A stretch of 64,000 nucleotides of DNA. Source: Thermodesulfovibrio yellowstonii DSM 11347 (GTDB lineage: Bacteria > Nitrospirota > Thermodesulfovibrionia > Thermodesulfovibrionales > Thermodesulfovibrionaceae). Where the stretch lies: positions 1,044,001 through 1,108,000 of the forward strand of contig NC_011296.1 in assembly GCF_000020985.1 (NCBI RefSeq). Reading direction: 5' to 3'. The notes below the pieces were generated by a model that did no database searches, had not been told where the DNA came from, and saw only the letters and a list, made by a program, of their open reading frames with translations. The translations under genes and the position numbers were made by a program. How positions within the stretch are numbered: the stretch's first letter is position 1; each line of letters opens with the position of its first letter. Below, in pieces: positions 38,389 to 61,363 of this stretch.

Positions 38389-39014
38389 AAATAAAAAAAT
38401 TTGAAGTTGGACCACTATTTGTAAACTGTTACATTATATATGACGAAAGGACAAAGGAAGCAGTTGTAATTGACCCTGGCGATGAACCTGATTTAATTCT
38501 TGATTTCATAAAAGAAGAAAATCTCAATCTTAAATATATACTTTGCACACATGGACATTTTGACCACATAGGCTCAGTCAAAGAATTAAGGGATGAAACA
38601 GGCGCAAAAGTTGTTTTACATGAGAAAGACATTGAAATATATAGGAATTCTCCTCAAATAGCCATGCAATTTTTTGGCATAGAAATAGAACCTCAACCTG
38701 AACCAGATATTCTTATTAAAAATGGCGAAATATTAAATACCGGAAATATTCAGCTAACAGTAATACATACCTCCGGGCATTCTCCTGGAAGTGTATGCTT
38801 TTATACTGACGGATATATATTCACAGGAGATACGCTTTTTGCAGGCTCTGTTGGAAGGACAGACATTATTGGAGGCAGTATGAATGAACTGCTTAATTCG
38901 CTCAAAAAGATAGCTTCTTTACCTGATGAAACCATAGTTTTCCCAGGTCATGGACCTAAAACTAAAATAGGAATTGAAAAGAAAACAAATCCCTTTTATC
39001 ATGAAGTTATTTAA
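38385..39014 (+). CDS. Metallo-beta-lactamase-fold hydrolase (GloB/YcbL type)
   Basis: This 209-residue protein has the MBL metal motif THGHFDHIG (His56, His58, Asp60, His61), HTSGHSPGSVCFY and FTGDTLFAGSVGRTD, and VFPGHGPKT near the end. These features are typical of glyoxalase II-like hydrolases of the YcbL group. The substrate, probably a thioester, cannot be assigned exactly. It overlaps murJ at its start, and the next gene's ATG at 39001 lies inside its last codons. Confidence 0.88.
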   Translation: MKIKKFEVGPLFVNCYIIYDERTKEAVVIDPGDEPDLILDFIKEENLNLKYILCTHGHFDHIGSVKELRDETGAKVVLHEKDIEIYRNSPQIAMQFFGIEIEPQPEPDILIKNGEILNTGNIQLTVIHTSGHSPGSVCFYTDGYIFTGDTLFAGSVGRTDIIGGSMNELLNSLKKIASLPDETIVFPGHGPKTKIGIEKKTNPFYHEVI

Positions 39015-43638: not shown

Positions 43639-45222
43639 TCAAACTTTAAAATATTCAACGCTCTCATCAAGAGCTTTTGTCTCTGCAGACAATTTAGTAG
43701 TAATATCTCTTACAAATTCAATCATTTTTACTGTATTATTAATGTTTTCCCTTATAGTATCCATATTTTGTGCAATTTCCTCACTTGTTGCAGACAACTC
43801 TTCTGTAGCAACTGCAATTCTCTGTATCATATCCATTGCCTTTTCTGTAGCAGATACAATCTCATCAAGAGCGCGCATTGCATCATTTGCTAAAGCGACT
43901 CCTCCTTCTGCCTGAGAACTGCTTGCATTCATTGCATTTACAGAAGCGTCTGACTTTGACTGAATATTTCTAATCTTGTCAGCAATCTCCTCTGTTGCTT
44001 TCGCAGTGCGTTCTGCAAGCTTGCGAACTTCATCGGCAACAACCGCAAAGCCCCTTCCCTGCTCACCTGCTCTTGCTGCTTCAATTGCTGCATTTAAAGC
44101 AAGAAGATTAGTCTGATCAGCAATGTCCTTTATGGTAAGCACAATCTCGCCAATTTCCTGTGAACTTTGTCCAAGTTCTTCAATTGTGCCAGCAGCTGCT
44201 TTGATTGAGTTAGCTATATCTATCATAGCCTTTACTGCTTTATCCACTGCAGTCTTGCCTTTTTCAGCAGTTTCATTTGCCTGTTTTGCTGAATCAGAAG
44301 CATGAGCTGCATTTTTAGCTACATCAATTATTGTCTGCGATATCTCTGTAGAGGCAGATGCCATCTGGTCTATACGCGATAACTGTTCTCGAGAGTTTTT
44401 CTCTAAATCATCTGTCTCTTTTGAAAGAGAGGCAACCATGGTATTGGTATTTTTTACCACTTCTCTGATTTTACCTATTGTTGCCCTTAAACTTTTTGTA
44501 ATTCTCTGATATATATCTCCAATTAAATCACAGGCTTGTGTTTTTTCCTCCCTAAGGTCTCCCTGTTCAAGTCTATTAAAACATCCTAAAGCTGAGGACA
44601 TATTTTTTTCATAGGATTTATATGAATAATAAAGCATTCCACTCAAGCCTGCAAGAGAAATAAAAAGAACAATTGAATAAATTATCGCATTTCTTTTTCT
44701 TACCTCTGAAATTTCTTTGTTAGTTTTTTCAAATTCTTTCTGATGAGTATCTGTTATTTTGAAAATCATATCCTTTATTTCTCTCCATACCTTTGTCTCT
44801 TCAACTATCTTCTTAACTGCCTCATCCTTTTTACCTTGTTCTGCTAATTGTTGAATTTCCATTTTCATAGAGTGATCTTTCTGCCACATTTGTTGGATTG
44901 TTTTCAATTGTTCCTGCATTTCTCCTTTTGTTAATTTTATAGCTGCTTCATTTGATTTCATAAATTCCTGATGCGCCTTTTGATAGTTTTTCTTTGCCTG
45001 CTCATCCTTTGGATTAATAAAAACATTTCTTGTTGCCTGACCTGTCTGAAGTCCCTGGGCATACATATCATTTAAAGCAACAAGGAGCATTATGTCCTTT
45101 TTTGTTAATTTTTCAACTCTTTCCTGAAATCCCTTCTCATTAAAATAAGACAGAATAAAAAGTCCAGCAAGAACAAGCAAAATCATAATATTAATAAATT
45201 GAAGCAATCTTTTTACATTCAT
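43639..45222 (-). CDS. Methyl-accepting chemotaxis protein
   Basis: This 527-residue chemoreceptor has TM1 (about 7-27), a helical four-helix-bundle-type periplasmic domain, TM2 (about 190-210), and a cytoplasmic signalling rod. The conserved hairpin [24 protein letters not shown] is in the middle. GGAGGGGATAAA lies just before the ATG at 45222. It begins 27 bases after the nuoN stop, so it is probably co-transcribed with the complex I genes. This raises the idea of a receptor matched to respiration (energy taxis). The ligand is not known. Confidence 0.9.
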
Positions 45223-45249: not shown

Positions 45250-46608
45250 TTAAAAAATTAATAACAGATTTGGGAAAAGTCCCAAAAAAATTAACAATAA
45301 AGCTCCTGATAATGCCATGCTGTTATTCAGAGGATGATTATAAATATCTATAACTAAAGAATCTTTATAAAGATAAAAAACTGGTCTTAAATAGTAAAAA
45401 GCGGAAAATATGCTCATTAGTAATGCAAAAAAAACTAATGAACCGTATCCATAAGAAAGAAGATTTTTAAAAAGATTAAATTTTACAATAAAACCTGCGG
45501 TAGGAGGTACTCCTGTAAGAGAAAACATTATCACTATAATGCAGAAAGAAAGAAGAGGATTTTTTCTTCCCACTCCTAAATAATTCTGAATACTTTCACC
45601 ATTTTTTATGTTCATAATAAAAGCAAAAGCGCTGAGATTCATAAAAACATATACAATCAAATAGGGGATCAGTGATATTAGAAGTTCTTTCTCTGGAAGT
45701 AAAAATGCCATAAACATATAACCAGCATGAGCAATTGAGGAATACGCAAGCATTCTTTTTAAATTATTCTGCCTTAAAGCAAGAACATTACCAACTAACA
45801 TTGAAAGAGCTGATATGATAACTATCAAATCTTGAATGTTAAGTTTTAAATTAATTGAAAGAAAAATATTAATTAAAGCTCCAAAAACTGCTACTTTAGG
45901 TGCTGTTGATAAAAATGCTGTTACAGCAGTGGGTGCTCCTTGATATACATCTGGTGCCCATGCATGGAAAGGTGCAAGAGACAGTTTAAAGGCAAATGCA
46001 GAGATTAAAAAAACAACACCCAATAGGATATTTAAATTCTCTGTCTTCAATAATTTAAAAGTTTCATAAGATGTGCTTCCTGTTTGAGCATAAAAGAAAA
46101 CAATTGAACCAAGAAGAATAATTGAAGACAGAGTTCCAAGAATAAAATATTTCATACCAGCCTCAATACTTAGACTTTCCTTTCTGTAAAAGCCTGCAAG
46201 AATATAAAGAGATAGGGAAAAAGTCTCAAGAGCAAGATAAAGAATAAGAAGATCATTAGCAACTATCATTAGATTCATTCCAAATAGTGATAAAAGAAGC
46301 AGAAAAACATACTCTACCGATTTACTACTTTTTAATTTAAGGTCACTGTAGGATAATCCAATGATAAAAACTCCTATAAACAAGACTAAAATCCTTAAGG
46401 TCTGTCTGTACAAGTCAATTTTTATTAATTCCGAAGTAAATTCCTTTTGTCCAAAATTAAATACCGATAATATTATAGCTGTAAGTATGCTTAAAAAACT
46501 CAAAATATAGGTTGTTCTATAATTTCTACTGATAAATCCATAAAAAAAGGAAATTATTGCTAAGATTAGCAGGCTTATTTCTGGTATCAAAACCTTGTAC
46601 TGAATCAT
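45250..46608 (-). CDS. nuoN: NADH-quinone oxidoreductase subunit N
   Basis: This 452-residue protein has about 14 membrane helices and antiporter-family motifs: YFILGTLSSIILLGSIVFFY, APFHAWAPDVYQGAPTAVTAFLSTAPK and RMLAYSSIAHAGYM. It is a proton-channel subunit of complex I. It overlaps nuoM at its start (ATGA). It is the last membrane subunit before the chemoreceptor gene. Intact. Confidence 0.92.
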   Translation of the reverse strand: MIQYKVLIPEISLLILAIISFFYGFISRNYRTTYILSFLSILTAIILSVFNFGQKEFTSELIKIDLYRQTLRILVLFIGVFIIGLSYSDLKLKSSKSVEYVFLLLLSLFGMNLMIVANDLLILYLALETFSLSLYILAGFYRKESLSIEAGMKYFILGTLSSIILLGSIVFFYAQTGSTSYETFKLLKTENLNILLGVVFLISAFAFKLSLAPFHAWAPDVYQGAPTAVTAFLSTAPKVAVFGALINIFLSINLKLNIQDLIVIISALSMLVGNVLALRQNNLKRMLAYSSIAHAGYMFMAFLLPEKELLISLIPYLIVYVFMNLSAFAFIMNIKNGESIQNYLGVGRKNPLLSFCIIVIMFSLTGVPPTAGFIVKFNLFKNLLSYGYGSLVFFALLMSIFSAFYYLRPVFYLYKDSLVIDIYNHPLNNSMALSGALLLIFLGLFPNLLLIF

Positions 46609-48044
46609 CCCTTACCTCCAAAGCTTACGATTTCATTTACTCCAGAAAGCACATAATCTGGATTTAATCCGAGGTAGATGGATATAAGTAGAAGTATTGC
46701 CAAAAAAAATAATTCCCAGGAGATTACATCCCTTACATAGGTAGAAAGCTCTGCTCCTGGCTTTCTAAGATATACTCTATAAAAGAACCAGGATAGATAA
46801 ACTACTCCCAGAGCAACACCGAATACACCAATAAAACCAAGAAATAAATTTTCCCTAAATATACCACTAAGGAGTAATAACTCTCCATTAAAGTAATTAA
46901 GTCCGGGAAATCCACCCATTGCCATGATTAATGAAAAAGTGAAAAAAGTTAAAGCCGGAACCCTTTTTGAAAGAGCTCCGAATTTTTCCAAATCAAAACT
47001 TTTTGTCTCTCTATTTAAAAGTTCAGCTACATAAAAAAGGGCTGCTGCAAGAATGCCATGATTTATACTCTGAAGAAGAACTCCCTGGTATCCCTGTAGA
47101 TTACCCGTAAAAGCTCCTGCTGTAATTATTCCCACATGACTGAGGCTCATATATGCAAAAAGAACTTTAATGTTTTTAGAGTTTAAGGCAAGAAAAGCAG
47201 AGTATACAAAAGAAATAAGGCAAGTAAGAATTATCCACTGATTCACGACTGATAAAATATCATTAAAATAAGGTATTACCCTCAGGATTCCATAAATTCC
47301 CATTTTCCCAAGCACTGCGGACAAGAATATTGTAACTGGCATAGCTGCCTCATAGTAGGCATCCTTTAGCCATCCATGAAGGGGAACTATGGGAATTTTA
47401 ACAAAGAAGGCAAGTATAAAACCAAAAAGGAGCAATAGTTTTGCAGTCTCGCTTATTTTTAAATTTTCAAGAGATGTAAAAGAGAAGCTTCCTCCGTAAT
47501 AGTAAGTAGCTATGATTGCAAGAAATAGAAATATACTAAAACCGAAAGTATATATCAAAAATTTAATAGAAGCCTGAAAGGAATTCTCACCACCCCATCG
47601 CTGAATAAGTAAAACTGCCGGGATTAACATAGCTTCATAGAAAAAAAAGAACTGCAAGAAATTGGTTGACATGAAAAAAGCATTAACTGAGACAGAGAGT
47701 AATAATAAAAGACTCATAAAAGATGAAATTTTATCTTTTATTGTCTTAGTTGCTAAAAGTATAATCGCCAAAGTTATAAAGGTAGTAAGCAAAACAAAGG
47801 GAGAATTTATATGGTCAAAACCAAGAGTAAAATTAAGTTGCCATGCAGATATCCATTCGTAGGAAGTTAAAAATTGAAAACCTTTCTTTGTTCTGTCAAA
47901 ATTAAGGTAATAAATTAGAGCCATTATGAACGACAGCGAGGATGACATTAGGGCAATTAAGTTAACAATTTTTCTGATACCTATTTTCCAAATTAAAAAG
48001 GCACCAAGCAAAGGAAATATTAGTATTAATTCAATTCCTACCAT
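46605..48044 (-). CDS. nuoM: NADH-quinone oxidoreductase subunit M
   Basis: This 479-residue, 14-helix antiporter-like subunit has LGFDHINSPFVLL near the N-terminus, PIVPLHGWLKDAYYEAAMPVTIFLSAVLGKMG in the middle, and LFAYMSLSHVGIITAG. These match NuoM. It is one of four antiporter-like subunits in the locus. It overlaps nuoN and is preceded by the L-like gene after a 9-base gap. Confidence 0.92.
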   Translation of the reverse strand: MVGIELILIFPLLGAFLIWKIGIRKIVNLIALMSSSLSFIMALIYYLNFDRTKKGFQFLTSYEWISAWQLNFTLGFDHINSPFVLLTTFITLAIILLATKTIKDKISSFMSLLLLLSVSVNAFFMSTNFLQFFFFYEAMLIPAVLLIQRWGGENSFQASIKFLIYTFGFSIFLFLAIIATYYYGGSFSFTSLENLKISETAKLLLLFGFILAFFVKIPIVPLHGWLKDAYYEAAMPVTIFLSAVLGKMGIYGILRVIPYFNDILSVVNQWIILTCLISFVYSAFLALNSKNIKVLFAYMSLSHVGIITAGAFTGNLQGYQGVLLQSINHGILAAALFYVAELLNRETKSFDLEKFGALSKRVPALTFFTFSLIMAMGGFPGLNYFNGELLLLSGIFRENLFLGFIGVFGVALGVVYLSWFFYRVYLRKPGAELSTYVRDVISWELFFLAILLLISIYLGLNPDYVLSGVNEIVSFGGKG

Positions 48045-48053
48045 ATTACTCTC

Positions 48054-49823
48054 CTAAAACAAAAGATATATCAAAAGCACAAGCCCTATAAAACTTAACA
48101 TATAAAAAGCATAGTCCTGAATCTTACCAGTATGAAAAATTGCTAATCCATCACTCATAGTCTTTGCTAAATTGGACATAAAAGTAGGTATCCCATTCAT
48201 TTTTCTGTCTTCATAAGCCATAATTTTGGATGAAAGAGGTAAAATTATTCGGTCTATTAACCATCTCCATATTTTGTTTATAAATCCATACTCTGCAGGG
48301 ACAACAGTTTTATTTAGAGATTTTAATGAGTATTTTGCCCCCACCCTATAGAACCAATCTATGTCAAGATTGATATATGATTTTGGCTTAAGTGTCTTAA
48401 GAAACATGGCAAAAACAAGCCCTGTAAAACTGAATATTCCCAATGTGTCAAGAATATGCTGGACTGTATAAGGCTCATAATCTATTGGATATGGCAAGAA
48501 ATTGTAGAAGAACTGTGGGAAAATTCCAATTAATATACATAGTGCTGATGTTGTGAGCATAGCAATCTTCATATTTAAAGGAATCTCTTTGACCTGATAG
48601 TCTGCCTTTTTCTCTGAAAAGAAAGTATAGTATCCCATTTTACAGATAATGCTTATAATAGTTCCGCATGTTGCCACATTGAGCATAATGTAGGCAAAGG
48701 CATTTTTGAGTTCACCTGCGGCAGAGATGATTGGTGATTTTCCAATAAATCCGTTAGTAAGCGGAAATCCAGCAATTGAAAAAGCACCTACAAAAAAGCT
48801 TATGGCAGTAAGTGGTGCATATTTTCCAAAATCACCAAGTTCTGTCATCTTTTCCTTTCCTGTGGCATAAATTACTGCTCCTGCAGACATGAAAAGAAGG
48901 CATTTATAAAGTATGTGGTTGAATGCATGTGAAGCTGAACCATTAAGCCCCAAAGTAATGGTACCGAGTCCTACTCCAGCAACCATATAGCCAACCTGAC
49001 TTACTATGTGGTATGAAAGTAGTCTTCTTAGATTATTCTCAAGTAACGCATATATGACACCATAAACTGCCATAACAGAGCCAAGGTATATCAGTATCTC
49101 TGCTCCAGGAAATCCTCTTATTAAAGCGTAAACTGCTGCTTTGGTAGTAAATGGATTAAGGAAAACACTTCCATAAATTGTTGCAGATGGATAGGCATCT
49201 GGTAGCCACGCATGCAAGGGTGGTACCGCAGCGCAAAGTATAAAGCCAATAAGAGTAAGCCACCAGAAAAGCTCTCCAGAGTAGCTCATAAAGGAGTCAA
49301 ACTGAAAACTTCCTGTTTGAGAGATATAGATCATTATGCCTGCAAAAAGGGAAAGACCACCCGCTACATGAACAAGAATGTATCTGTAGCCTGCCTCTGT
49401 TGCCTCTTTTGTTCTCTGAGACCAGATAAGTAAAACCGCGCAAAAAGACAACATCTCCCAGAAAAGATAGAAGCTTAAAATATCTGCTGCAAAGCTAACG
49501 CCTACTGATGCACCTGTATAGAAAAGTCCAGCCAACTGTTGAATCCAATCATCTATATGATAGCAATAGATTATCCCAATCAAACCAATAAAACTAAATA
49601 TATAGGCAAAAAGAAGGCTCAGTTTGTCCACCCTAACAAGAGGCGATATATCCATACCAAACAAACTCATATAACCATAAAATCCCTGCTCGGCTATTAA
49701 TGTAAGGAAAAAGCCTACTGTAGCGATGAGAACACTGTAGGGTCCTCTCATATTCTTGGGTAATGCTGGCAACAAAAGAGCTCCGAAGATCAGAACCACT
49801 CCCGGATGAATAAAATCAGTCAT
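48054..49823 (-). CDS. Large antiporter-like complex I subunit (NuoL/MrpD-like)
   Basis: This 589-residue polytopic protein has the proton-antiporter core VDKLSLLFAYIFSFIGLIGIIYCY, PPLHAWLPDAYPSATIYGSVFLNPFTTKAAVYAL and RRLLSYHIVSQVGYM. The C-terminal extension (about 480-589) has more helices, as in NuoL with its lateral helix, but the sequence is closer to MrpD/hydrogenase-type antiporters than to standard NuoL. It occupies the L position before nuoM. A 71-residue membrane protein overlaps its start. The exact subunit name needs a phylogeny. Confidence 0.8.
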   Translation of the reverse strand: MTDFIHPGVVLIFGALLLPALPKNMRGPYSVLIATVGFFLTLIAEQGFYGYMSLFGMDISPLVRVDKLSLLFAYIFSFIGLIGIIYCYHIDDWIQQLAGLFYTGASVGVSFAADILSFYLFWEMLSFCAVLLIWSQRTKEATEAGYRYILVHVAGGLSLFAGIMIYISQTGSFQFDSFMSYSGELFWWLTLIGFILCAAVPPLHAWLPDAYPSATIYGSVFLNPFTTKAAVYALIRGFPGAEILIYLGSVMAVYGVIYALLENNLRRLLSYHIVSQVGYMVAGVGLGTITLGLNGSASHAFNHILYKCLLFMSAGAVIYATGKEKMTELGDFGKYAPLTAISFFVGAFSIAGFPLTNGFIGKSPIISAAGELKNAFAYIMLNVATCGTIISIICKMGYYTFFSEKKADYQVKEIPLNMKIAMLTTSALCILIGIFPQFFYNFLPYPIDYEPYTVQHILDTLGIFSFTGLVFAMFLKTLKPKSYINLDIDWFYRVGAKYSLKSLNKTVVPAEYGFINKIWRWLIDRIILPLSSKIMAYEDRKMNGIPTFMSNLAKTMSDGLAIFHTGKIQDYAFYMLSFIGLVLLIYLLF

Positions 49824-50031
49824 AGTAGTCCTCCTTCTTTGTTACTACTTTACTTAATGACTTAGCAACAATGATGATAAAGAGAGTCCCTAAAAGACCT
49901 ACCAATGCACCAAAGGCAGGAAGTTCTTCAAATTCAAAATAGCCGTGTCCAAGATGCATCACCTTTAGAAATAATACCTCTAAAATAACCACAACAAGAC
50001 ATGCAATATAGAGAGCTTTTTTATAATTCAT
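49816..50031 (-). CDS. Small two-helix membrane protein of the complex I locus
   Basis: This 71-residue protein has two hydrophobic helices (KALYIACLVVVILEVLFLKV and ALVGLLGTLFIIIVAKSL) with a conserved-looking GYFEFEELPAFGA between them and an acidic tail KKEDYYD. It is translationally coupled on both sides (overlaps of 4 and 8 bases) between the two large antiporter-like genes, so it is probably a real complex subunit. It is not one of the canonical Nuo subunits. I do not recognise its function. Confidence 0.8.
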   Translation of the reverse strand: MNYKKALYIACLVVVILEVLFLKVMHLGHGYFEFEELPAFGALVGLLGTLFIIIVAKSLSKVVTKKEDYYD

Positions 50032-51494
50032 TGCATCACTCTCCTTATAATTTCCATGAGAAAATCTGGATATACTCCAAGAATAATCGTAAATAAAGCA
50101 GTAATGAGCAAAGGTATGGCACAGAAGTAGTTTTCCTTAACATTTTGCCATCTGTTTTCCTGTAATGGTTTTCTAAAGAAAGCTTTATAGGAAATCGGAA
50201 GAAAATAGACTGCATTAAGAAATGAACTGGCAATAAAAATTCCAAGAAGTTCGGGTCTGCCTATCTGCAAAGCTCCCATCGCAAGATTATATTTGCTTAT
50301 AAAGCCTGCAAAAAGAGGTATTCCTATCATGCTCAAAGTAGCAAGAAAAAAGGAAAACATGGTAATTGGCATAACCTTACCTATTCCATCAAGTTCGCTT
50401 ATTCTCTTTACATGAGTTGATACATAAACAGAGCCTGCCACAAAGAACATGGTTATTTTAGAGAAAGCATGCATACTTATATGAATAAGTCCTCCCATTA
50501 TTCCTAAAGGCGAAAACATGGCAACTCCGATAATTATGTATGAAAGATTTGCCACTGTTGAAAAAGCAAGTCTTGCTTTGAAATCATCTCTTGTAAGAGC
50601 AATAAGTGAGCCCATTATTATAGTAAAGCCTGTGAGGAAAAATATTAAATCCTGCATTCCGATTGCCTTTATCGTTGCTTCTCCATAGATATTAAGCAAA
50701 ACTCTTGAAACAGTGAATACACCTGCTTTAACAACAGCAACAGCGTGAAGCAATGCACTAACAGGAGTAGGAGCTACCATTGCTGCAGGCAGCCAACTAT
50801 GAAGAGGCATCACAGCAGATTTATTAAACCCATAGATGAAAAGTATAAGCAATATTTGTAGAATAAGTTTATTTTCTTCAACGATTTCAGGCGCAAAGAT
50901 TCCACCTTTTCTAAAATCAAGTGTTCCTGTAAGAATATAAGTGATAACTATGGCAGCAAATAGGAAAATTTTCGCTGTACCTAAGAGATACACAATATAC
51001 TGTCTACCACCCTCAAGTCCTTCTCTGTCTTCGTGATGGGCTACAAGAGGATAGGTTACAATAGTTAATGCTTCATAAAAGATAAACATTGTAAATAGAT
51101 TTGCAGCAAAGGCAATACCTATTGCAGAACTTAGAGAAAGGGCAAAACAGGTAAAATATCTTGTCTGAGCATGCTCTCTAAGAGTTCGCATATAGCCGAT
51201 TGAGTAAAAAGTTGTTAAAATCCATAGGAATGAAGCGCCGAAGGCAAAAAGTAAACCCAATCCATCAACCCTGAAGGAAAGCTCTATTCCAGGTAAAATT
51301 GTAGCAATTTTTAATCCTATAGTTTCCCCTCTTAAAAAAGGAGGAATAAGCATACAGACAAAGGAAAACTTTAAAACTCCTGCTATTACAGATGTGGCTT
51401 CTCTCAGGTTTGGATTCCTCTCTCCAATTAGAACAATTATTACAGCTCCTATAGCAGATACTAATATAGCTAAAAGCGGTAGTAGCTCTATCAT
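50028..51494 (-). CDS. Antiporter-like subunit, MrpD/NuoM type (extra pump)
   Basis: This 488-residue, 14-helix protein has FRVDGLGLLFAFGASFLWILTTFYSIGYM, a core SAVMPLHSWLPAAMVAPTPVSALLHAVAVVKAGVF, and FKARLAFSTVANLSYIIIG. The AVMPLHSWLPAAMVAPTPVSALLHAV motif is the family proton-path signature. It lies directly after nuoK, where nuoL is expected, but three more antiporter-like genes follow. With L-like, M and N this gives four, one more than standard complex I. Overlap with the 71-residue gene indicates coupled translation. Confidence 0.85.
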   Translation of the reverse strand: MIELLPLLAILVSAIGAVIIVLIGERNPNLREATSVIAGVLKFSFVCMLIPPFLRGETIGLKIATILPGIELSFRVDGLGLLFAFGASFLWILTTFYSIGYMRTLREHAQTRYFTCFALSLSSAIGIAFAANLFTMFIFYEALTIVTYPLVAHHEDREGLEGGRQYIVYLLGTAKIFLFAAIVITYILTGTLDFRKGGIFAPEIVEENKLILQILLILFIYGFNKSAVMPLHSWLPAAMVAPTPVSALLHAVAVVKAGVFTVSRVLLNIYGEATIKAIGMQDLIFFLTGFTIIMGSLIALTRDDFKARLAFSTVANLSYIIIGVAMFSPLGIMGGLIHISMHAFSKITMFFVAGSVYVSTHVKRISELDGIGKVMPITMFSFFLATLSMIGIPLFAGFISKYNLAMGALQIGRPELLGIFIASSFLNAVYFLPISYKAFFRKPLQENRWQNVKENYFCAIPLLITALFTIILGVYPDFLMEIIRRVMQ

Positions 51495-51497
51495 TCT

Positions 51498-51803
51498 TTA
51501 CTCCTCTTTAAGTTCTCTTATTTCTTCTGTGTCCACACTTTTTTTCAGATTAAAGTGAGCGATAAGGAGAGAAAGTCCTACAGCAACAGAACCTGCAGCA
51601 ACAGCTATTGTAAATATTGCCAGCACTTGTCCTCTAATGTCATTCATGTAGTGAGAGAGTGCAACCAAGGCAAGATTAACTCCTGCAAGCATCACTTCAA
51701 GCGATACGAAAACAATTATTAGATTTCTGTTTATAAGGAGATTGATCAATCCCATACTAAAAATTAATCCAGCAAGTATGAGATAAGCTTCAAGAGGTAT
51801 CAT
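51498..51803 (-). CDS. nuoK: NADH-quinone oxidoreductase subunit K
   Basis: This 101-residue, three-helix protein has the NuoK pattern FVSLEVMLAGVNLALVALSHYM, with the glutamate essential for proton transfer, and a helix 3 with FTIAVAAGSVAVGLSLLIAHF. It overlaps nuoJ by 14 bases. The length is typical. Confidence 0.94.
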   Translation of the reverse strand: MIPLEAYLILAGLIFSMGLINLLINRNLIIVFVSLEVMLAGVNLALVALSHYMNDIRGQVLAIFTIAVAAGSVAVGLSLLIAHFNLKKSVDTEEIRELKEE

Positions 51804-52305
51804 CTTTTCTCCTCCATGCTAATACCGAGACCGCAATCATCGGAATGAGTAAAATAACTCCAAGAATGAGCACAGCCAGAGAATATTCATTAAAAAGCAT
51901 TGCACCGATGGCTTTTGTGTTACCCACATCATGAACGTATTTTATTGTATATTTTCCACTGTATTCAGCTTTAATAGATGAAAAAACAGCTAATAGCGTA
52001 GCAGTTATAGAAAGTCCAATAAGTAATCTTCCTTCAAGTATTGATGTATATCTTTTATGCTTTGGAAGTTGCCTCGCTCCAAGTAAAAACAAGGTAAAAA
52101 GAAACATAACCAGTATAGCACCTGCATAAACAATAACCTGAACCATAGCTAAAAATTCTGCATTAAGAAACAAGTATATAACTGCCACATGAAGAAAAAG
52201 AAGCAAAAGCCAGAGCACTGCATGGACAGGATTTTTTCTTGTAAGTGACATTATGGAAATGCCTAAAGTAGCAAGACAAAAATATGCAAATATAAAATAT
52301 ATCAT
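51790..52305 (-). CDS. nuoJ: NADH-quinone oxidoreductase subunit J
   Basis: This 171-residue, five-helix membrane protein has NPVHAVLWLLLLFLHVAVIYLFLNAEFLAMVQVIVYAGAILVMFLFTL, the NuoJ core including the pi-bulge helix. It overlaps nuoH at its start by 4 bases and nuoK by 14. Intact. Confidence 0.94.
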   Translation of the reverse strand: MIYFIFAYFCLATLGISIMSLTRKNPVHAVLWLLLLFLHVAVIYLFLNAEFLAMVQVIVYAGAILVMFLFTLFLLGARQLPKHKRYTSILEGRLLIGLSITATLLAVFSSIKAEYSGKYTIKYVHDVGNTKAIGAMLFNEYSLAVLILGVILLIPMIAVSVLAWRRKDDTS

Positions 52306-53297
52306 AATGCAAACCTCTTGAATATAGCGATTATTATAATATTCAAAATTCCCGCAGGAATTAGCACTTTCCAGCCAATGTTTAACAGCTGGTCAAACCT
52401 GTATCTTGGAAATGTTGCTCTAACCCAGATGTATAGGAATATGAAGGCATACACCTTTATAGCAAACCAGATTATTCCTGGAACTTTATCTAAGAATGGA
52501 AGTATATCAGTAATGAATTTTGGAATTGTCCATCCACCAAGGAAACAGAGGGCACATAGAGAAGCCATAATGTACATGGCAACATACTCAGCAAGGAAGA
52601 ATAGAGCATATCTAAAGGCACTGTATTCCGTAAGATATCCTGCTACAAGCTCTGTCTCTGCCTCTGGTAAGTCAAAGGGTGCACGGTTAGTCTCTGCAAA
52701 GGCAGCAATGACGAAGACAACAAAACCAATTATCTGCGGAATTGCATAGACTCCTAAGGCTGTATTGTGTTGGGCTATAACTATATCTCTTAAATTGAGG
52801 GAGCCTGCGGCAAGAACAACTCCAGCAAGGCTTAGTCCAAGAGCTATCTCATAGGAAAGAACCTGACTTGCCGAACGAAGTCCACCAAGGAAGGAGTACT
52901 TGCTATTCGATGACCATCCAGCAAGTATTATTCCGTAAACAGAGACTGAAGCAGAGGCTAATATAAAAAGTAAGCCCACATTTAAATCGGCAAGGATAAA
53001 GTTAGAAGTAAAAGGGATAACTGTAAGATTAATCATTGTGAAGATTAAAACAATAAGGGGTGCAATTTGGAATATAAACTTTTCAGCATTTATAGGAACT
53101 ATGTCCTCTTTAAAGAATATTTTTATGAAGTCGGCAATTGGCTGAAGCAGTCCATGAGGTCCTACTTCCATAGGTCCCATTCTTGCCTGTGCTCTGCCGA
53201 TTATCTTTCTTTCTGCATAGGTTGTGTAAGCAACATGGGTAAGAACTATTCCAAAGACCACTGTTGTTTTAATTACCATTATGAGAAGCTCAATCAT
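52302..53297 (-). CDS. nuoH: NADH-quinone oxidoreductase subunit H
   Basis: This 331-residue, eight-helix protein has the NuoH hallmarks [59 protein letters not shown] and the late [20 protein letters not shown]. It forms the quinone-entry chamber with NuoD and NuoB. The overlap with nuoC is 4 bases and with nuoJ 4 bases. Confidence 0.96.
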
Positions 53298-53899
53298 TTA
53301 TTCTCCTCCACTGAAGAACTTTCAATAATCTCTCTAAAGCCTCTCCAAAGCTCTTTACCCTTAAGGGGATAATCTTTCCTTAGTGGATATCCATTCCAAT
53401 CCTCAGGCATAAGTATTCTTCTAAGGTCTGGATGCCCAATAAATCTTATTCCGAACATGTCAAAGCATTCTCTTTCATGCCAGTTTGCACCTTCCCATAA
53501 ATCTGTAACTGAATCTAATTCTGGAGTCTCTTCGTTAACCTTTGCTCTAACTCTTATATGAAGCCTTCTCCAAATGCTATAGAGATTGTAGACTATCTCA
53601 AACCTTGGTTTTTCAGGAGAATAATCAACACCGCATAGGTCTTGAAGATGATTGAATCCCTGTTGATTTTTTAAATATTTTAAAATCTCTTTAATTTTAT
53701 TTGACTTTACAATTACAGAAACCTGTCCTCTGAACTCTTTTATTTCGATTACTTCCTCTGGAAATTGCTCTTTCAACTTATATGCAATCTTAAGAGATTC
53801 CTCGGTCGCTCTCGCTCCCTCGGAATGACACGAAGAAAAAGTGCTTGGCTCAGATACTAAGGGCTCTTCCTCTAAAACTCTCTCTATTTCCTGTGCCAT
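53294..53899 (-). CDS. nuoC: NADH-quinone oxidoreductase subunit C with in-frame repeat
   Basis: This 201-residue protein has the NuoC core ([72 protein letters not shown]). The N-terminal segment of about 35 residues includes [13 protein letters not shown], which is a dispersed palindromic repeat (53794-53830) read in frame. Usual NuoC is 150-170 residues, so the extension fits an insertion. It is not fused to NuoD. It overlaps nuoA and nuoH. Confidence 0.93.
53794..53830. repeat. Dispersed palindromic repeat within nuoC
   Basis: On the minus strand, TGTCATTCCGAGGGAGCGAG and its arm CGACCGAGGAATCTC. It matches the copies in cobN, at 8044 and at 12312. Here it is translated as about 12 codons near the NuoC N-terminus. 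The orientation relative to the gene is opposite to that in cobN. Confidence 0.85.
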
Positions 53900-54264
53900 G
53901 TGAGTGCTCCCATAAAGATTTCATAGATATATCCAATAAAAATCAGCAAGATAAATATAATCATCATCCAAAATCCCTCAAGGGATATGGCGTCAAAGGC
54001 AACTGCCCAAGGATAGAGAAAAATGACTTCCACATCAAAGACCACAAAGAGAATGGCAAGAAGGAAAAAGCCAATATAAAACCTCTCCTTTGGTTCACCA
54101 CTTGGTGGGTTTCCAGATTCATAGGCAATAAACTTGATAGGATTAAATTTCCTTGGAGCGACAATCTTATTAACAATAAGTCCTCCTAAGCCAAAGACCG
54201 TGGCAAATATCATGGCAATTAGAACAGGTAGATATTTGTAAGGTATGTATGAACCTGGCTCCAT
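53884..54264 (-). CDS. nuoA: NADH-quinone oxidoreductase subunit A
   Basis: This 126-residue, three-helix protein has the NuoA motif [49 protein letters not shown], with the conserved ESG and the DVE glutamate. nuoA normally opens the operon; here it follows nuoI, which is a rearranged order. It overlaps nuoC by 16 bases. Confidence 0.95.
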
Positions 54265-54827
54265 TATTGACTTTCCTCCCTTCCAATGATTGGATTGGGC
54301 TGTCTTTTACCAACGGGAAGTCTCTCTCTACCAATTCCAGGCAAATGCCAGAATTTATTCAGATATTCCTTTCTCTCATACTGTCCAATAAATTCATCCC
54401 AGTTAATAAGAAGTCTATCTCTGTTAAAGTAGTTTTCCTCTCTTGTGTAAGAGGCATACTCAAAATACTCAGTAAGAACAATTGCATTTACAGGACAGAC
54501 TTCTTCGCAGTATCCGCAGAAGATACATCTTAGTGCATCTATCTCATACTTCGTTAAAACTCTTGCTCCTGTTTCAGGGTTTATTGAATAGTCAATGTAT
54601 ATGCACTGGCTTGGGCATACCTGAGCACACTTTGTACAGGCAACACAACGCTCCTTCCCTGTTTCAGGATCACGAACAAAGGCATGCCTTCCCCTGAAAC
54701 CATCTTCAAGAGGTCTTTTCTGTTTTGGATATCTTATTGTTACAGGTGTTGTGAAAATTGTCTTGAAAGTAATTAATAATCCCTTAATTAGGTCAATGAA
54801 GAGTATCTTTTTCAGTAAATTGTTCAT
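54264..54827 (-). CDS. nuoI: NADH-quinone oxidoreductase subunit I
   Basis: This 187-residue protein has two 4Fe-4S motifs, CVACTKCAQVCPSQCI and CIFCGYCEEVCPVNAI, and the usual FRGRHAFVRDPETGKERC segment. It carries electrons from the N-module side to NuoB. The gene abuts nuoA (shared base 54264) and overlaps nuoD by 4. With no NuoEFG, the electron source to these clusters is open. Confidence 0.95.
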   Translation of the reverse strand: MNNLLKKILFIDLIKGLLITFKTIFTTPVTIRYPKQKRPLEDGFRGRHAFVRDPETGKERCVACTKCAQVCPSQCIYIDYSINPETGARVLTKYEIDALRCIFCGYCEEVCPVNAIVLTEYFEYASYTREENYFNRDRLLINWDEFIGQYERKEYLNKFWHLPGIGRERLPVGKRQPNPIIGREESQ

Positions 54828-56029
54828 CGGTCAGCCTCTCCCATAACTATGTCCAGAGTTCCAATTATTGCTATTACATCTGCAAGAAGATGTCCCTCAC
54901 AAAGCTTTGGAATTGCAGATATGTGAATAAATGAAGGCGCTCTAACTCTCATTCTGTAAGGTCTTCCTGAACCGTCACTCACTATATAAAAGCCAAGCTC
55001 ACCTTTCGGTGCTTCTATGGCTGAATAGATTTCTCCTTTGGGCATTATTTCCTGTTTTTCCTCTGAAAATGCAATAAATCCATTCCAGAGAGAATCCCCT
55101 GGTTCAATCTTTCTTTTTGCCTGATGGGGCAAATCAATATCAGGAGATTTATCTGATAAAATTTTTCCTTCTGGCATCTTTTCAATACATTGTTTTACAA
55201 TCAGTACAGACTGTCTCATTTCCCTTATTCTGCATAAATACCTATCATAAGTATCCCCTTTTTCTCCAAGAGGTACTTCAAAATCAATTTCGCTGTATGC
55301 ATCATATGGTATTTGTTTTCTTATATCGTAGTAAACTCCAGAACCTCTCAAAGCAGGACCTGTAAGTCCTAATAGAACTGCATCCTCTGGTGCGATGACT
55401 CCAACCCCTCGAGTTCTCGCAATCCAGATACGGTTTTCTGTAAGAAGTGTTTCATATTCATCAACTCTGATGAGCATTAAATCCATAAACTTATAAATCT
55501 CATCAAGAACATGCTCTTTTATATCAACCCTTACCCCTCCAATTCTTGGATAGCTAACCGTAAGTCGGGCACCACATATTTTTTCAAAAAACTGCAATAT
55601 CTGCTCTCTCTCTCTGAATGCATAAAGAAACACGGTCATTGCACCGATGTCTAAGGCATGGGTAGCAAGCCAGAGAAGATGACTACTTAATCTGGTCATT
55701 TCAGATACCATTGTTCTTATAAATTTTGCCCGTGGTGGTGGTTCTATTCCCATAAGTCTCTCAACGGCAAGACAGTAACCAATATTGTTGGTCATACTTG
55801 AGATGTAATCAAGCCTGTCTGTAAGAGTCATTGCACCTGGATAGGTCTTACTTTCAGAGAGTTTTTCCACACCTCTATGTAAATAACCAACATCTGGCTT
55901 TATATTGATTACCCTTTCACCCTCAAACTCACAGAGAAGTTTCAGCACCCCATGAGTAGCAGGATGATGTGGTCCCATCTGAAGAACAAAGGTTGTGTCA
56001 CTTACTTTTTCTATTTCAGTCTCCCCCAT
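54824..56029 (-). CDS. nuoD: NADH-quinone oxidoreductase subunit D
   Basis: This 401-residue protein has [20 protein letters not shown] (quinone-site histidines), [12 protein letters not shown], and [14 protein letters not shown], with the standard NuoD end. It lacks the paired N- and C-terminal cysteine motifs that bind NiFe in hydrogenases, so this is a quinone-type complex and not an energy-conserving hydrogenase. It overlaps nuoB by 19 bases. Confidence 0.96.
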
Positions 56030-56535
56030 CTTCCTTCTTCCCTCATAATTTTTTCTTTCAATTTAAGCACACCATACATCAATGCTTCAGGTCTTGGTGG
56101 ACAACCAGGAACATAGACATCTACAGGTAAAAACTGGTCAGCACCTTGAACAGTGCTGTAGGTATTAAATATTCCACCTGTGCATGCACAACTTCCCATT
56201 GCTATGACATACTTTGGTTCTGGCATCTGGTCATAAACCCTTTTAACAATAGGTGCCATTTTGTATGTAACTGTTCCAGCTATGATTATTACATCTGCCT
56301 GACGTGGTGAGGCTCTAAAGAGTATTCCAAAACGGTCAAGGTCTAAATGGGATGCGCCTGCTGCCATCATCTCGATGGCGCAGCAGGCAAGACCAAAAGT
56401 GAGGGGCCAAAGAGAGTTTGACCTACCCCAGTTTACGACTTTGTCAAGAGTAGTAATTATGACATTGCTACCCTTGATTATCTTTGTTCCTTCTTCTACC
56501 TCAATAAGCTGTTTATCATTAGTAGAGGGAAGCAT
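56011..56535 (-). CDS. nuoB: NADH-quinone oxidoreductase subunit B
   Basis: This 174-residue protein has the N2 cluster ligands: ACCAIEMMA (Cys51-Cys52), GSCACTGG (Cys116) and [10 protein letters not shown] (Cys145). It hands electrons to quinone at the NuoD interface. It begins inside the last codons of the ferredoxin-like gene at 56519-57025 (17-base overlap), which ties that gene to the complex. Confidence 0.96.
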
Positions 56536-57025
56536 AGGTATCCTTCACAAACCTCTCTCTCTTGAGTTTTGAAGCCTCATCAGCAGAGACAAACTTCAAT
56601 GCCTTTGTTGTGCACTTTGTAACACAAGCAGGCTTCAAACCCTGGTCTACCCTGTCCTTACAGTAATCACACTTTACAACTTTGCCAGTCTCAGGATTCC
56701 ACTGAGGTACTCCCCATGGGCAAGCCGTAATGCAAGATTTACAGCCAACGCAAAGAGACTGCTCAACAAAAACTATTCCATCCTTTGAACGCTTCTGCAT
56801 TGCACCTGTGGGACAGGCTTTTACACACCAGGGGTCTTCACAGTGAAAACAGGGCATAAAGACAAATCTTTGTCTTGGAAGTCCTCCGATTAGTTTTATA
56901 TCTGTTTCAATTATTCTACAAAGTCTCGGTCCTACGGGAAGTTCATTTTTTGTTTTACAGTGCACCTCACAGGCATAACAACCTATGCAACGGTCATGGT
57001 CTTGATATATATAGTAGATGCTCAT
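56519..57025 (-). CDS. Four-cluster ferredoxin-like electron-transfer subunit
   Basis: This 168-residue protein has four 4Fe-4S motifs: [37 protein letters not shown], and [21 protein letters not shown]. It belongs to the DmsB/PsrB/HycB-type family that pairs with molybdopterin subunits. It has no signal sequence, so it acts in the cytoplasm. It lies 12 bases after the Mo oxidoreductase gene and overlaps nuoB, so it could pass electrons between the Mo enzyme and complex I. Confidence 0.93.
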
Positions 57026-57037
57026 ATCTGTCCTCCC

Positions 57038-59125
57038 TTAAGCCTTCTTCACTCTTACAAAGTTTTCAAAAAGCGCACCTGTGTGGCTTCCATGTGCCAT
57101 TTTGTCAAAAGCTCCGCTAAGAAGTCTACCTTCATTTAGTCCTTTACCGAAGGAACGGGTCTTCCAGGGCACTTCATTCTCAAATCCTCTATACATAAAC
57201 ACAGCCTCTGGGTGAATAAACGGAGTAACTTTAGCTCTAATTTTCCCAGAAAAATCTCCAGAAGATACCTCTACCCAGTCACCATTCTTTATTCCAAGTT
57301 TTGCTGCAGCTTTATCGTTTATCCAGAGTTCGTTTTCAGGAACAATCTCATTGAGATATCTGTTGTTATGGGTCTGCACATGGGTGTGCACTGCCATTCT
57401 TCCAAAGACAAGTCTGAACTCGCCCTCTTCAATGTTAGGCTTTGCAGGTGTTTGATGTTCATAGAAGAATGGAACTTCTCTTTCAGCCATCTTGCTTGAG
57501 AGAATTTCTACTTTACCTGAAGGAGTCTTGAATTTGAGCTCATCTCTTGAATACATTTTAGCATCTTTACAGAGAGCAACCTGTCCAGATTTATCGAAGT
57601 CCTCAATCTTAACTCCTGTTCCTTCAAGCTGATAATTCCAAAGATCTTCAATGGTTTCAAAGGGCATGTACTGTCCAACACCATAGGCATATAGAAGTCC
57701 CTTTGTTATCTCCCATTTACCCTTTGTATCATAGATTGGCTTAATTGCCTTTCTTCTCATTATGAATGCAGGCTTTGCACCTCTCTGAAGCCCTATCATG
57801 TCATCTCTTTCAAGATAGGTTGACTCTGGCAATACAACGTCGGCATACCAAGCCGTTGATGAATAGTTGGTGTCTATTGCCACTAACAGGTCAAGTCCAT
57901 CAAGGACTTCTTTAATATCTTTTAGGGTAATTCCTGCAAAGGGATCGTAACGAACTACAAAGAGAGCCTTCACAGGATAGGGCTCGCCCTTTTTAATTGC
58001 TCTGTAAAGATGGAGAATGTGTCCTGCTCCATCGTAGAGAAATCCTTTACCTGCCTCAGCCTCAACTCTTTTTTCCTCAGGTGCAGGAATTTTTTCAAGT
58101 AGGCTGTTTAACCCTTTTGCTCCCACTTCCTTTGGTGTCTTTGCAAGAATCAAACCACCCTTCTGCTCTATGCTACCAAGTAGTGCATTAAGAATAATTA
58201 CAGAACGGGCAAAATAGAAGGCATCCATATACCTTGCAGAAAACCAACCGGGATAGAGTATTACTCTTGGTTTTGCAGCACTCAAAGCCTTTGCTAAGTT
58301 AACTATTTCATAGGCAGGAATTCCTGTTTCCTTTTCAGCCCACTCAGGAGTGCAGTTTTTTACAAAGTTTTCAAGTTCTACAGTTCCATCAAAGAATTTA
58401 TCAACAAAGTCTTTGTCGTAAAGATTTTCTTTTAAAATTACATGAATTAAAGCAAGATTGAAGGCATAGTCAGTGCCTGGTCTTATCTGATAGAACCTTG
58501 TTGCCTTTGTTGCAGTCTTTGATACTCTCACATCTAAATATGTGAGATCTGCTCCGTTTTCAAGAGCCTTAACAATATTGTTAACCTCTCTAACACCTAA
58601 GGCTTCAATGGCATTTCTGCCATAGAATACCATGTGTTTAGTATTGGCAAAGTCATATCCTACCTCCGGTCTACCGTAGCCAAGCAGAGTTTGATAGGCA
58701 AGGTCAACATTTTTTCTGCAGAAGTCGTCATGACTAAAGTAATTGGGAGAACCCATTCCTCTTACAATCAATCTCTGCATTTCTCCGAAAAGACCAGCTC
58801 CTCTGTCTAAAAGGGCTACGGTTCTTTTACCATACTTTGCCTGTATATCCTTGACTTTGTCTGCCACGTATTTGAAGGCCTCTTCCCAGCTTACCCTTTT
58901 AAACTGGCCCGAGCCTCTTTCGCCAGTTCTAATCATTGGATACTGAAGCCTTTCGGAGTCATAAAGAAGGGCAATTCCAGCAGAGCCCCTGGCACAGAGG
59001 CTTCCCTCCATGCCAGGAACGTAAGGATTCCCCTCTATCCATTTAACTCTACCGTCTTCTACTTCAACCCGAATGGGGCATCTTACGGAGCACATTCCAC
59101 AGTTGCTGAATACTGAGTTCTTCAT
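57038..59125 (-). CDS. Molybdopterin oxidoreductase (PhsA/PsrA-like), cytoplasmic
   Basis: This 695-residue Mo-bisMGD enzyme has an N-terminal 4Fe-4S site (Cys9, Cys12, Cys16 in SNCGMCSVRCP, and Cys44 in SLCARGSAG). A probable Mo ligand is Cys136 in SHDDFCRKN. Segments GADLTYLDVRVSKTATKA, and LPESTYLERDDMIGLQRGA, place it near thiosulfate/polysulfide reductases or related enzymes. It lacks a Tat signal, so it is cytoplasmic, unlike most PhsA/PsrA. It sits between a TauE/SafE transporter and the ferredoxin subunit and complex I, so the reaction may involve a sulfur compound or act as an electron donor to complex I. The substrate is not provable here; a formate dehydrogenase is an alternative. 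Confidence 0.85.
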   Translation of the reverse strand: MKNSVFSNCGMCSVRCPIRVEVEDGRVKWIEGNPYVPGMEGSLCARGSAGIALLYDSERLQYPMIRTGERGSGQFKRVSWEEAFKYVADKVKDIQAKYGKRTVALLDRGAGLFGEMQRLIVRGMGSPNYFSHDDFCRKNVDLAYQTLLGYGRPEVGYDFANTKHMVFYGRNAIEALGVREVNNIVKALENGADLTYLDVRVSKTATKATRFYQIRPGTDYAFNLALIHVILKENLYDKDFVDKFFDGTVELENFVKNCTPEWAEKETGIPAYEIVNLAKALSAAKPRVILYPGWFSARYMDAFYFARSVIILNALLGSIEQKGGLILAKTPKEVGAKGLNSLLEKIPAPEEKRVEAEAGKGFLYDGAGHILHLYRAIKKGEPYPVKALFVVRYDPFAGITLKDIKEVLDGLDLLVAIDTNYSSTAWYADVVLPESTYLERDDMIGLQRGAKPAFIMRRKAIKPIYDTKGKWEITKGLLYAYGVGQYMPFETIEDLWNYQLEGTGVKIEDFDKSGQVALCKDAKMYSRDELKFKTPSGKVEILSSKMAEREVPFFYEHQTPAKPNIEEGEFRLVFGRMAVHTHVQTHNNRYLNEIVPENELWINDKAAAKLGIKNGDWVEVSSGDFSGKIRAKVTPFIHPEAVFMYRGFENEVPWKTRSFGKGLNEGRLLSGAFDKMAHGSHTGALFENFVRVKKA

Positions 59126-59137
59126 GTTAAACCCCTT

Positions 59138-59527
59138 TTAAAATACGCCAAGCAATTGTAAGGCTAATATTAAGAGACCGACGCAAGCAACCCTTTTTAC
59201 CATTACAGGATTGAGTTTCTTTGCAATCTTAGGTCCTATATAACCACCAAGAATTGCCGCAGGAAACATTATTAAGAAGAATATTAAGTCAAAGTTTCCA
59301 AAGCCATAATGTCTAAACGTTCCCATAAGGGTATTGAAGAATATGGCAAGCAAAGAGCTACCCACGATAACATACATGGGAAGTCTTAAACCAACTGCCA
59401 TGAGAGGAACCATAAATGGCCCACCACCAAAGCCAAACATAGATGATGCAATTGCTATAAGAAATGCACCTGGAATACCTATTGCAAGATTTACTTTAAA
59501 TTCCTGTCCCCAAAATTCTATTTTCAT
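59138..59527 (-). CDS. TauE/SafE-type transporter, second half
   Basis: This 129-residue membrane protein with about four helices has the TSUP (TauE/SafE, DUF81) repeat motif GFGGGPFMVPLMAVGLRLPMYVIVGSS. Full TSUP transporters have two such halves (about 250 residues); this gene holds only one and the upstream gene holds the other. The start is 2 bases after the preceding stop, so the halves are translated together. TSUP proteins export or import sulfite, sulfonates or other sulfur compounds. Confidence 0.85.
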   Translation of the reverse strand: MKIEFWGQEFKVNLAIGIPGAFLIAIASSMFGFGGGPFMVPLMAVGLRLPMYVIVGSSLLAIFFNTLMGTFRHYGFGNFDLIFFLIMFPAAILGGYIGPKIAKKLNPVMVKRVACVGLLILALQLLGVF

Positions 59528-59529
59528 AG

Positions 59530-60774
59530 TTATTTACCTCCTTCTGCCTTTTTCTTTGCTTCTTCTTCTGCTCTCTTTCTAAACTCTTTAAGAATTGCCT
59601 GTTCTTTCTTGTTTTTCTCTAAGTATCTTGGAGTTGTCTGCCAGAACATAAGAAGTGAAAGTATTATAAGAACCCATCCAAAAAGGAATTTATACTGGTC
59701 AAGGGTTATAAGCTCCGTCAGTTTTGGACCAATAAATCCTCCGGCAAGCATGGCAAGCCCGAGAGTAACTCCAAGCTTCCAGTTGATAAATTTAATTTTT
59801 GAGTAGTTGTAAATTCCTGTGCCTTGGGAGAAAAGAACTGTTGGCATGACTGTTCCTGCTACAACTGTATGAGGAAGTCCAAACATTACAAGTATCGGGT
59901 TAAGAATAAATCCACCACCAGCACCCATCAAAACTCCAAAAGTTGTAATTGCCGCAGTAAGAAGGAATGGCCATATTACATTAACAGTCCTACCAGCATT
60001 TGGTAAATATACACTGGGAAATGTAACTGAGTTTTCAACTACAACCGGTTCACTCTTTATATCCTTGTCAACCTTTGCAACGACAAAATATTTTCCAGGA
60101 GCAGTGTTTGCTGGAAGTTCAATTGTAGCCTTAAATGTGCCATCTTCTGCTATTTTTAAGTTTGAAGAAAATACGTTACCAACGCTACGAAATCTTGCTT
60201 TAAGTAGCTGCATAGACCTGCGCTTATTCTCTTTTTCATCCATTGGTTCAAGCTTTGTTCCTCTTGAACCAATTATGCTTGCCCACAAAGACGTCTGATA
60301 CCTATCAATTTTCAACTTTGCAGGATAACCGTAAACAGCATCGGCACCGGCATTTTTTATAACTTCAGAAACACTCCACTTTCCACCCTTTGCCTTAGCA
60401 TCCTCTAAAACGGGCTTATATTTTTCAGGAACAATTAATCTGTAAAAGGCGGGCATATCATCAGTCATATAAAATATGTATGGCCTCTTACCAGTTTTGG
60501 GATCTGGGTCTGCGTCAAGCCTTGCAGCTCTTACAGTTTTTTCAGCCCAGACTTCAATGTATACATCTTTGCCAGCTGGTACTTTACCAGTGATTGTAAG
60601 TTTACCTCCGCCTGAAAGATTTGTTTTATCAACGCTTACTGTAACAGTCTCTGCTGACTGTGCTTCCTTCGGAGCTTCAACGGCTTTCTGTTCAGCAGGC
60701 TTCTGAGCAAAACCAGTAGAGACAAAAACCGTTAAAACAAGAATTACTGTAAAAAGAGTTAAAAATCGCTTCAT
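59530..60774 (-). CDS. TauE/SafE-type transporter, first half with periplasmic domain
   Basis: This 414-residue protein has a signal peptide (about 1-23, ending GFAQ) and an extracytoplasmic region of about 230 residues rich in beta strands (LSGGGKLTITGKVPAGKDVYIEVWAEKT). A TSUP half then follows with VIWPFLLTAAITTFGVLMGAGGGFILNPILVMFGLPHTVVAGT, and a charged C-terminal tail comes last. The extracellular domain is an unusual addition. It starts 18 bases after usp and ends 2 before the other half. The substrate is probably a sulfur compound. Confidence 0.85.
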   Translation of the reverse strand: MKRFLTLFTVILVLTVFVSTGFAQKPAEQKAVEAPKEAQSAETVTVSVDKTNLSGGGKLTITGKVPAGKDVYIEVWAEKTVRAARLDADPDPKTGKRPYIFYMTDDMPAFYRLIVPEKYKPVLEDAKAKGGKWSVSEVIKNAGADAVYGYPAKLKIDRYQTSLWASIIGSRGTKLEPMDEKENKRRSMQLLKARFRSVGNVFSSNLKIAEDGTFKATIELPANTAPGKYFVVAKVDKDIKSEPVVVENSVTFPSVYLPNAGRTVNVIWPFLLTAAITTFGVLMGAGGGFILNPILVMFGLPHTVVAGTVMPTVLFSQGTGIYNYSKIKFINWKLGVTLGLAMLAGGFIGPKLTELITLDQYKFLFGWVLIILSLLMFWQTTPRYLEKNKKEQAILKEFRKRAEEEAKKKAEGGK

Positions 60775-60792: not shown

Positions 60793-61206
60793 TTATCTAA
60801 TTATCAAAACTGATTGAGTAGCATTTGCTGCCACTTTTTGTGTGACACTTCCAAAAAGTGTTCTTTCTGTTGCATCCTTACCTTTTGAACCAATAACAAT
60901 TAAATCATAGCCATTTTTGGCATAATCAACAATTACATCAGCAGGCGAACCTTCAAGAATTATTGTCTCTCCTTTCACCCCCTTTTCATTTAAAATTTCC
61001 TGTGCTTTTTTGAGGTTTCCCTCAAATTCTGCCTTAAAAATCCCCTCAACTGTTGCACAGTCTACCCCAATCTCTAAAAAACAAACTTTCGGAACAACCG
61101 AGATAACAGTTATCTGAGAACCAAATTTTTGTGCCAGCTTGATAGCTTCGTTCAAAGCTTTTTTCGACCACTCTGAGCCATCAAAACATACTAAAATTTT
61201 TTGCAT
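60793..61206 (-). CDS. Universal stress protein (UspA family)
   Basis: This 137-residue protein starts MQKILVCFDGSEWSKKALNEAI and has the ATP-binding loop GSKGKDATERTLFGSVTQKVAANA near the end. It belongs to the ATP-binding Usp group. GGAGG lies 7 bases before the ATG. It is the first gene after the sigma-54-type promoter at 61247 and probably begins the long unit that runs to the chemoreceptor. Confidence 0.93.
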   Translation of the reverse strand: MQKILVCFDGSEWSKKALNEAIKLAQKFGSQITVISVVPKVCFLEIGVDCATVEGIFKAEFEGNLKKAQEILNEKGVKGETIILEGSPADVIVDYAKNGYDLIVIGSKGKDATERTLFGSVTQKVAANATQSVLIIR

Positions 61207-61246
61207 GGTAAACCTCCTACGAATAATTTTTCAAAAAAGAAGTAAT

Positions 61247-61263
61247 TGCAAAATATTTGCCAA
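61247..61263 (-). promoter_or_regulatory. Putative sigma-54 (-24/-12) promoter before usp
   Basis: On the minus strand the sequence is TTGGCAAATATTTTGCA: GG and GC separated by exactly 10 bases, in the TTGGCA...TTGCA context. The start of transcription would be about 61236, with the usp ATG at 61206. An NtrC-family activator gene is in the window (42223-43563). A paired inverted repeat TGTCCC/GGGACA lies about 100 bases upstream. Confidence 0.75.
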
Positions 61264-61330
61264 AAGATAAGTTATTGAAAATATTAGAAAATGGACAGAT
61301 TAAGGTGTGCCATTAGGGACAAAAGTGACA

Positions 61331-61358
61331 AACTGCTGTCCCATTTGGGACAGCAGTT
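61331..61358. promoter_or_regulatory. Inverted repeat: activator site or aconitase terminator
   Basis: A perfect 12-base arm AACTGCTGTCCC, loop ATTT, and its complement, with an outer AGTGAC/GTCACT pair around it. It begins 6 bases after the aconitase stop, so it may be a weak terminator. It also lies about 100 bases upstream of the -24/-12 element, where activator (NtrC-type) sites are placed. A further GGGACA half-site is at 61316-61321. Confidence 0.6.
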
Positions 61359-61363
61359 CTAAG

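Follow-up and report, generated by a model that had tools for sequence, protein, structure and literature searches.

Promoters of the NtrC-type sigma-54 class, such as those of glnA, nif, and psp, carry helically phased tandem sites approximately 80-110 bp upstream, a -24/-12 box, and an IHF-like site between them. In the AioXSR system, AioR works through an RpoN promoter, and an mcp gene is likewise under its control (PMC5908839, PMC6011840). The 2016 account of Thermodesulfovibrio N1 reports that both Nuo complexes of this organism lack NuoEFG and proposes that the Psr/Phs-linked one is coupled to sulfur compounds (PMC5165239). A NuoEFG-less complex I is also upregulated during sulfur disproportionation in Desulfurivibrio dismutans, its partner being described as unidentified (PMC12142623). 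Herein, we analyzed a 64,000-nt stretch of the Thermodesulfovibrio yellowstonii DSM 11347 genome (the window), in which a probable sigma-54 promoter and two predicted activator sites precede a long run of genes headed by usp (Table 1).

Table 1. Features of the usp-complex I locus and its proposed regulatory genes (window coordinates).
Feature	Position	Strand	Sequence or basis
Sigma-54 -24/-12 promoter	61247..61263	-	TTGGCAAATATTTTGCA; exact match, genus conservation, enrichment upstream of orthologs
IHF-like site, between UAS and promoter	61268..61280	-	TTTCAATAACTTA; 1 mismatch to WATCAANNNNTTR
Proximal activator dyad (UAS2, predicted)	61306..61321	.	TGTCCCTAATGGCACA read on - strand; -58 to -61 from the -24 GG in relatives
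Distal activator dyad (UAS1, predicted)	61337..61352	.	TGTCCCAAATGGGACA read on - strand; sole perfect genome copy; -89 to -92 from the -24 GG in relatives
Longer hairpin enclosing UAS1, probably the aconitase terminator	61330..61359	-	Region's best terminator-like site; 13-bp stem
usp, universal stress protein, first gene	60793..61206	-	PF00582
TauE/SafE (TSUP) transporter, N-terminal half, which has an additional N-domain	59530..60774	-	PF01925
TauE/SafE transporter, C-terminal half	59138..59527	-	PF01925
Molybdopterin oxidoreductase (Mo enzyme), PhsA/PsrA-like	57038..59125	-	Profile and homology matches; no Tat signal by inspection
4Fe-4S electron-transfer (FeS) subunit, DmsB/PhsB-like	56519..57025	-	Domain and profile searches
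Complex I core: nuoB,D,I,A,C,H,J,K, L/M-like subunits, N; no nuoEFG	45250..56535	-	ORFs, gaps, synteny in relatives
71-aa membrane-like ORF inside nuo operon	49816..50031	-	No Pfam match; overlaps both neighbours
Methyl-accepting chemotaxis protein (MCP), last gene of run	43639..45222	-	PF00015; ends operon in some relatives, absent in others
NtrC/AtoC-type response regulator, proposed activator	42223..43563	+	PF00072, PF00158, PF02954; HTH-dyad covariation
Sensor histidine kinase	40610..42220	+	Domain search
Double PhnD-like oxyanion-binding protein, proposed sensor	38974..40647	+	PF12974; matches to PtxB, ArrX

The promoter reads TTGGCA-AATATT-TTGCA on the minus strand, and the ATG of usp (61206) follows 40 bases further on. 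Its TGGCA-N6-TTGCA core contains the GG-N10-GC of sigma-54 promoters and occurs in exact form only once in the 64,000-nt window; the genome has one copy of rpoN. When two mismatches were allowed, 76 matches were found in the window against 69 expected. A -24/-12 box alone is therefore weak evidence, and the box was judged real because of the comparative data, namely its conservation in the genus and its enrichment outside the genus. The original prediction placed a sigma-54 promoter upstream of usp, and the comparative evidence supports it. The usp transcript is predicted to start near 61235.

The original prediction also placed an activator-like TGTCCC/GGGACA dyad upstream of this promoter. 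That dyad (UAS1) reads TGTCCC-AAAT-GGGACA on the minus strand, its center lies approximately 109 bp before the predicted transcription start, and both its position and its arms are conserved in the genus. A second dyad (UAS2), absent from the original prediction, lies 31 bp, or three helical turns, closer to the promoter. UAS1 is the only perfect TGTCCC-N4-GGGACA dyad in the 2,003,803-bp genome. Besides UAS2, the sole one-mismatch site genome-wide is at 1453768, which was rejected as a further target since it falls within coding sequence. The two dyads are 30-32 bp apart in the relatives, as expected of phased upstream activator sites. The original observation of a sigma-54 box with an upstream dyad is confirmed, and it stands on firmer ground than first described.

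Conservation of the promoter region was assessed as mean column conservation in an alignment of 16 sequences from the genus. The values were 0.92 and 0.83 for the UAS dyad arms and 0.91 for the sigma-54 boxes, against 0.53 for the neighboring bases upstream of and between the dyads and 0.66 for those before the promoter. In genome G002, the promoter and dyads are retained with approximately 400 bp inserted before usp; this insert, which separates promoter from gene, has repeated GGAACGACA-like units. In G003, usp is decayed to a pseudogene and the sigma-54 box is degraded, and both dyads are retained. The dyads were not recovered from G008 and G010, owing to a contig end or a scan miss.

Several of the compared genomes are drafts. 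Of 71 loci outside the genus, 21 had a sigma-54 box no more than 280 bp ahead of the transporter gene, compared with 0.55% of random windows; several members of the order had no recognizable box at this position. Tandem TGTCCC dyads were found at eight loci from other families of the order, most of them with a -24/-12-like box. No tandem TGTCCC pair was found on either strand of 1.76 Mb of Desulfobacterota loci. At nine Desulfobulbales loci, the sigma-54 box upstream of the transporter is preceded by another conserved inverted repeat, GTGCCGCAAAAAA...GGTGCATATTTTTTGCGGCAC.

The genes from 61206 to 43639 had been predicted to form one long operon, and the tight packing was borne out: the gaps from usp to nuoN and the MCP gene are at most 27 bp, many genes overlap, and the synteny of the relatives agrees. 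An apparent 204-bp hole at 49824-50027 is occupied by the 71-aa ORF. The names of the nuo genes were assigned by gene order and from a published account (PMC5165239). Two genes encode the TauE/SafE transporter in most related loci, and the product of the first has a long additional domain at its N-terminus; in four loci (L005-L008) an additional PhnD-like binding protein gene lies between usp and the transporter, approximately 840 bp before the latter. The linkage of Mo enzyme, FeS, and nuo genes was also found at L010, L015, L031, and L034. At L011 and L012, however, complex I genes are missing after the FeS gene, as might be expected if sigma-54 drove only usp, the transporter, and the Mo and FeS genes and if nuo had an internal promoter of its own. 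We regard such a division as unlikely, given that the FeS and nuoB genes overlap by 17 bp and that nuo follows FeS in the genus loci of sufficient length. Internal sigma-70-like promoter matches were not above chance, a result still compatible with internal promoters.

Transcription from a sigma-54 promoter would call for an activator, and the NtrC-type protein encoded from 42223 had been named as the candidate. It combines a receiver, a sigma-54 AAA+ domain, and a Fis-type HTH, the composition of an NtrC/AtoC-type EBP. Orthologs were present in 16/16 genus genomes (75-86%), often convergent with the operon end. Genes for the PhnD-like protein (SBP), the kinase, and the activator lie upstream of the transporter promoter at L011, L014, and L015. 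Moreover, the recognition helix and the dyad covary, within a sample of few independent helix types: helix GISRKQLRTKMK pairs with TGTCCC dyads (the genus, L011, and L186), GISRKVLWKKLK or GISRKVLWKKIK with GTTCCC dyads (L015 and L014), and GMNRQAFQKLM of the Desulfobulbales activator with a GCAAAAAA...TTTTTTGC repeat that bears little resemblance to either dyad. The genome encodes approximately 12 full EBPs, and in G002 and G003 the activator genes are not adjacent to the operon, so that the promoter and dyads could be real and yet serve another EBP; this we consider improbable, because the neighborhood in distant relatives and the helix-dyad covariation single out the 42223 protein. Helix GISRKQLRTKMK is absent from all other EBPs of this genome. 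The 42223 regulator is therefore the most likely activator of the usp promoter, as judged by its orthologs, gene neighborhood, and covariation with the dyads. For the proposed sensor at 38974, the closest solved relative is the phosphite binder PtxB, and its alignment with ArrX, considered with regard to the sensor Cys106 and arsenic-binding pocket of AioXSR-type systems, is only partial.

Between the dyads and the promoter, an IHF site is likely. The IHF-like sequence matches the IHF consensus WATCAANNNNTTR at all but one base, and it lies 18-19 bp before the GG in 13/18 sequences, compared with 1.7% of random segments. The IHF-alpha-like product encoded in the genome exceeds one curated cut-off, and the IHF-beta-like one falls short of its cut-offs. 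UAS1 is also embedded in a hairpin with a T-rich tail, directly after the acn stop. That the dyad is nothing more than the intrinsic terminator of acn, with the -24/-12 match arising by chance in AT-rich DNA, would suit this best terminator-like hairpin of the region and its stem flanks, which differ in sequence and still pair in several acn-linked relatives, but it is very improbable, as the dyad core, the second dyad, and the promoter hold position in four relatives without acn upstream (G012, G013, G014, and G006), where the stem extension is mostly lost, and termination as the sole role of the dyad was rejected on these grounds. No clean link between acn upstream and the hairpin extension was found in the relatives, G007/L008 being the exceptions. 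The UAS1 dyad may double as activator site and acn terminator.

We consider it highly probable that a sigma-54 promoter with two tandem UAS, bound by the 42223 protein and aided by IHF bending, drives the genes from usp to complex I as one unit. In this circuit, the periplasmic PhnD-like protein would most likely bind an oxyanion and pass the signal to the histidine kinase, as in AioXSR, and the kinase would phosphorylate the 42223 response regulator. Dimers of 42223 would then sit adjacent on the two dyads, on one face of the DNA. IHF would bend the DNA between dyads and promoter and so favor looping, which would allow the AAA+ ring of 42223 to remodel the RNA polymerase-sigma-54 complex. The polymerase would then read through a single 18-kb operon that comprises usp and the genes for the TauE transporter, the PhsA/PsrA-like Mo enzyme, the FeS subunit, and the NuoEFG-less complex I.

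The original prediction that complex I, a Mo enzyme, and a transporter are under possible sigma-54 control was supported by the comparison, with one refinement: this complex I is not the only one of the cell. A second nuo cluster, with a different gene order, follows the pyruvate:ferredoxin oxidoreductase genes, which fits the two complexes described for strain N1 (PMC5165239), and no near-consensus sigma-54 box was found at its head. Therefore, sigma-54 would govern a specialised second nuo operon rather than the sole complex I. The best matches of the Mo enzyme were the PhsA model and Thermus PsrA, those to the ArrA and arsenite-oxidase models being far weaker; against the PhsA thiosulfate reductase model NF012032 it scored 527 bits, under the curated cut-off of 694, and it was thus not assigned to that class. 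With less certainty, the TauE transporter and the enzyme family point to a sulfur oxyanion such as thiosulfate as substrate or signal.

Tentatively, an oxyanion-sensing SBP-kinase-sigma-54 system could be conserved across Nitrospirota and Desulfobacterota and induce a dedicated proton-pumping complex I, in which a cytoplasmic thiosulfate/polysulfide-type Mo enzyme replaces NuoEFG. Such a complex might pump upon oxidation of sulfur compounds or might operate in reverse and drive electrons from menaquinol to thiosulfate. A regulator, its binding sites, and a promoter are hereby proposed for an energy-conserving sulfur operon, in two phyla in which the disproportionation of sulfur and the use of thiosulfate are poorly understood. 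Since the inducer should reveal the substrate, the sensor-activator system offers a direct handle on the latter. A complex I operon also joins the probable sigma-54 targets. In our partial coverage of the literature, we found no account of a complex I operon as a sigma-54 target and no earlier description of this promoter, its dyads, or its activator assignment; two sigma-54 regulome papers (PMC4641369, PMC12316311) contain neither a matching motif nor a nuo target.

Compared with the NtrC-type tandem-UAS promoters of glnA, nif, and psp, the usp promoter shares the layout but differs in dyad sequence and regulon. The linkage of Psr/Phs and Nuo genes was already published in 2016 for the Thermodesulfovibrio N1 cluster, in which A and B subunits are likewise associated with a Nuo complex that lacks NuoEFG; the available part of that account does not describe a promoter, activator site, or regulator (PMC5165239). 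The closest regulatory counterparts are AioXSR and ArxXSR (PMC5908839, PMC6011840), in which a PhnD-like periplasmic sensor, a histidine kinase, and an AtoC-type sigma-54 regulator are linked to a Mo enzyme, as they are here, and the RpoN promoter has the same TGGCA...TTGCA form. The mcp gene under AioR control also has a counterpart in the MCP gene that ends the operon. In contrast to these systems, the sensor described here has a double PhnD domain, the enzyme is PhsA/PsrA-like without a Tat signal and not an arsenite oxidase or arsenate reductase, the dyad sequence is different, and a transporter and complex I are among the targets.
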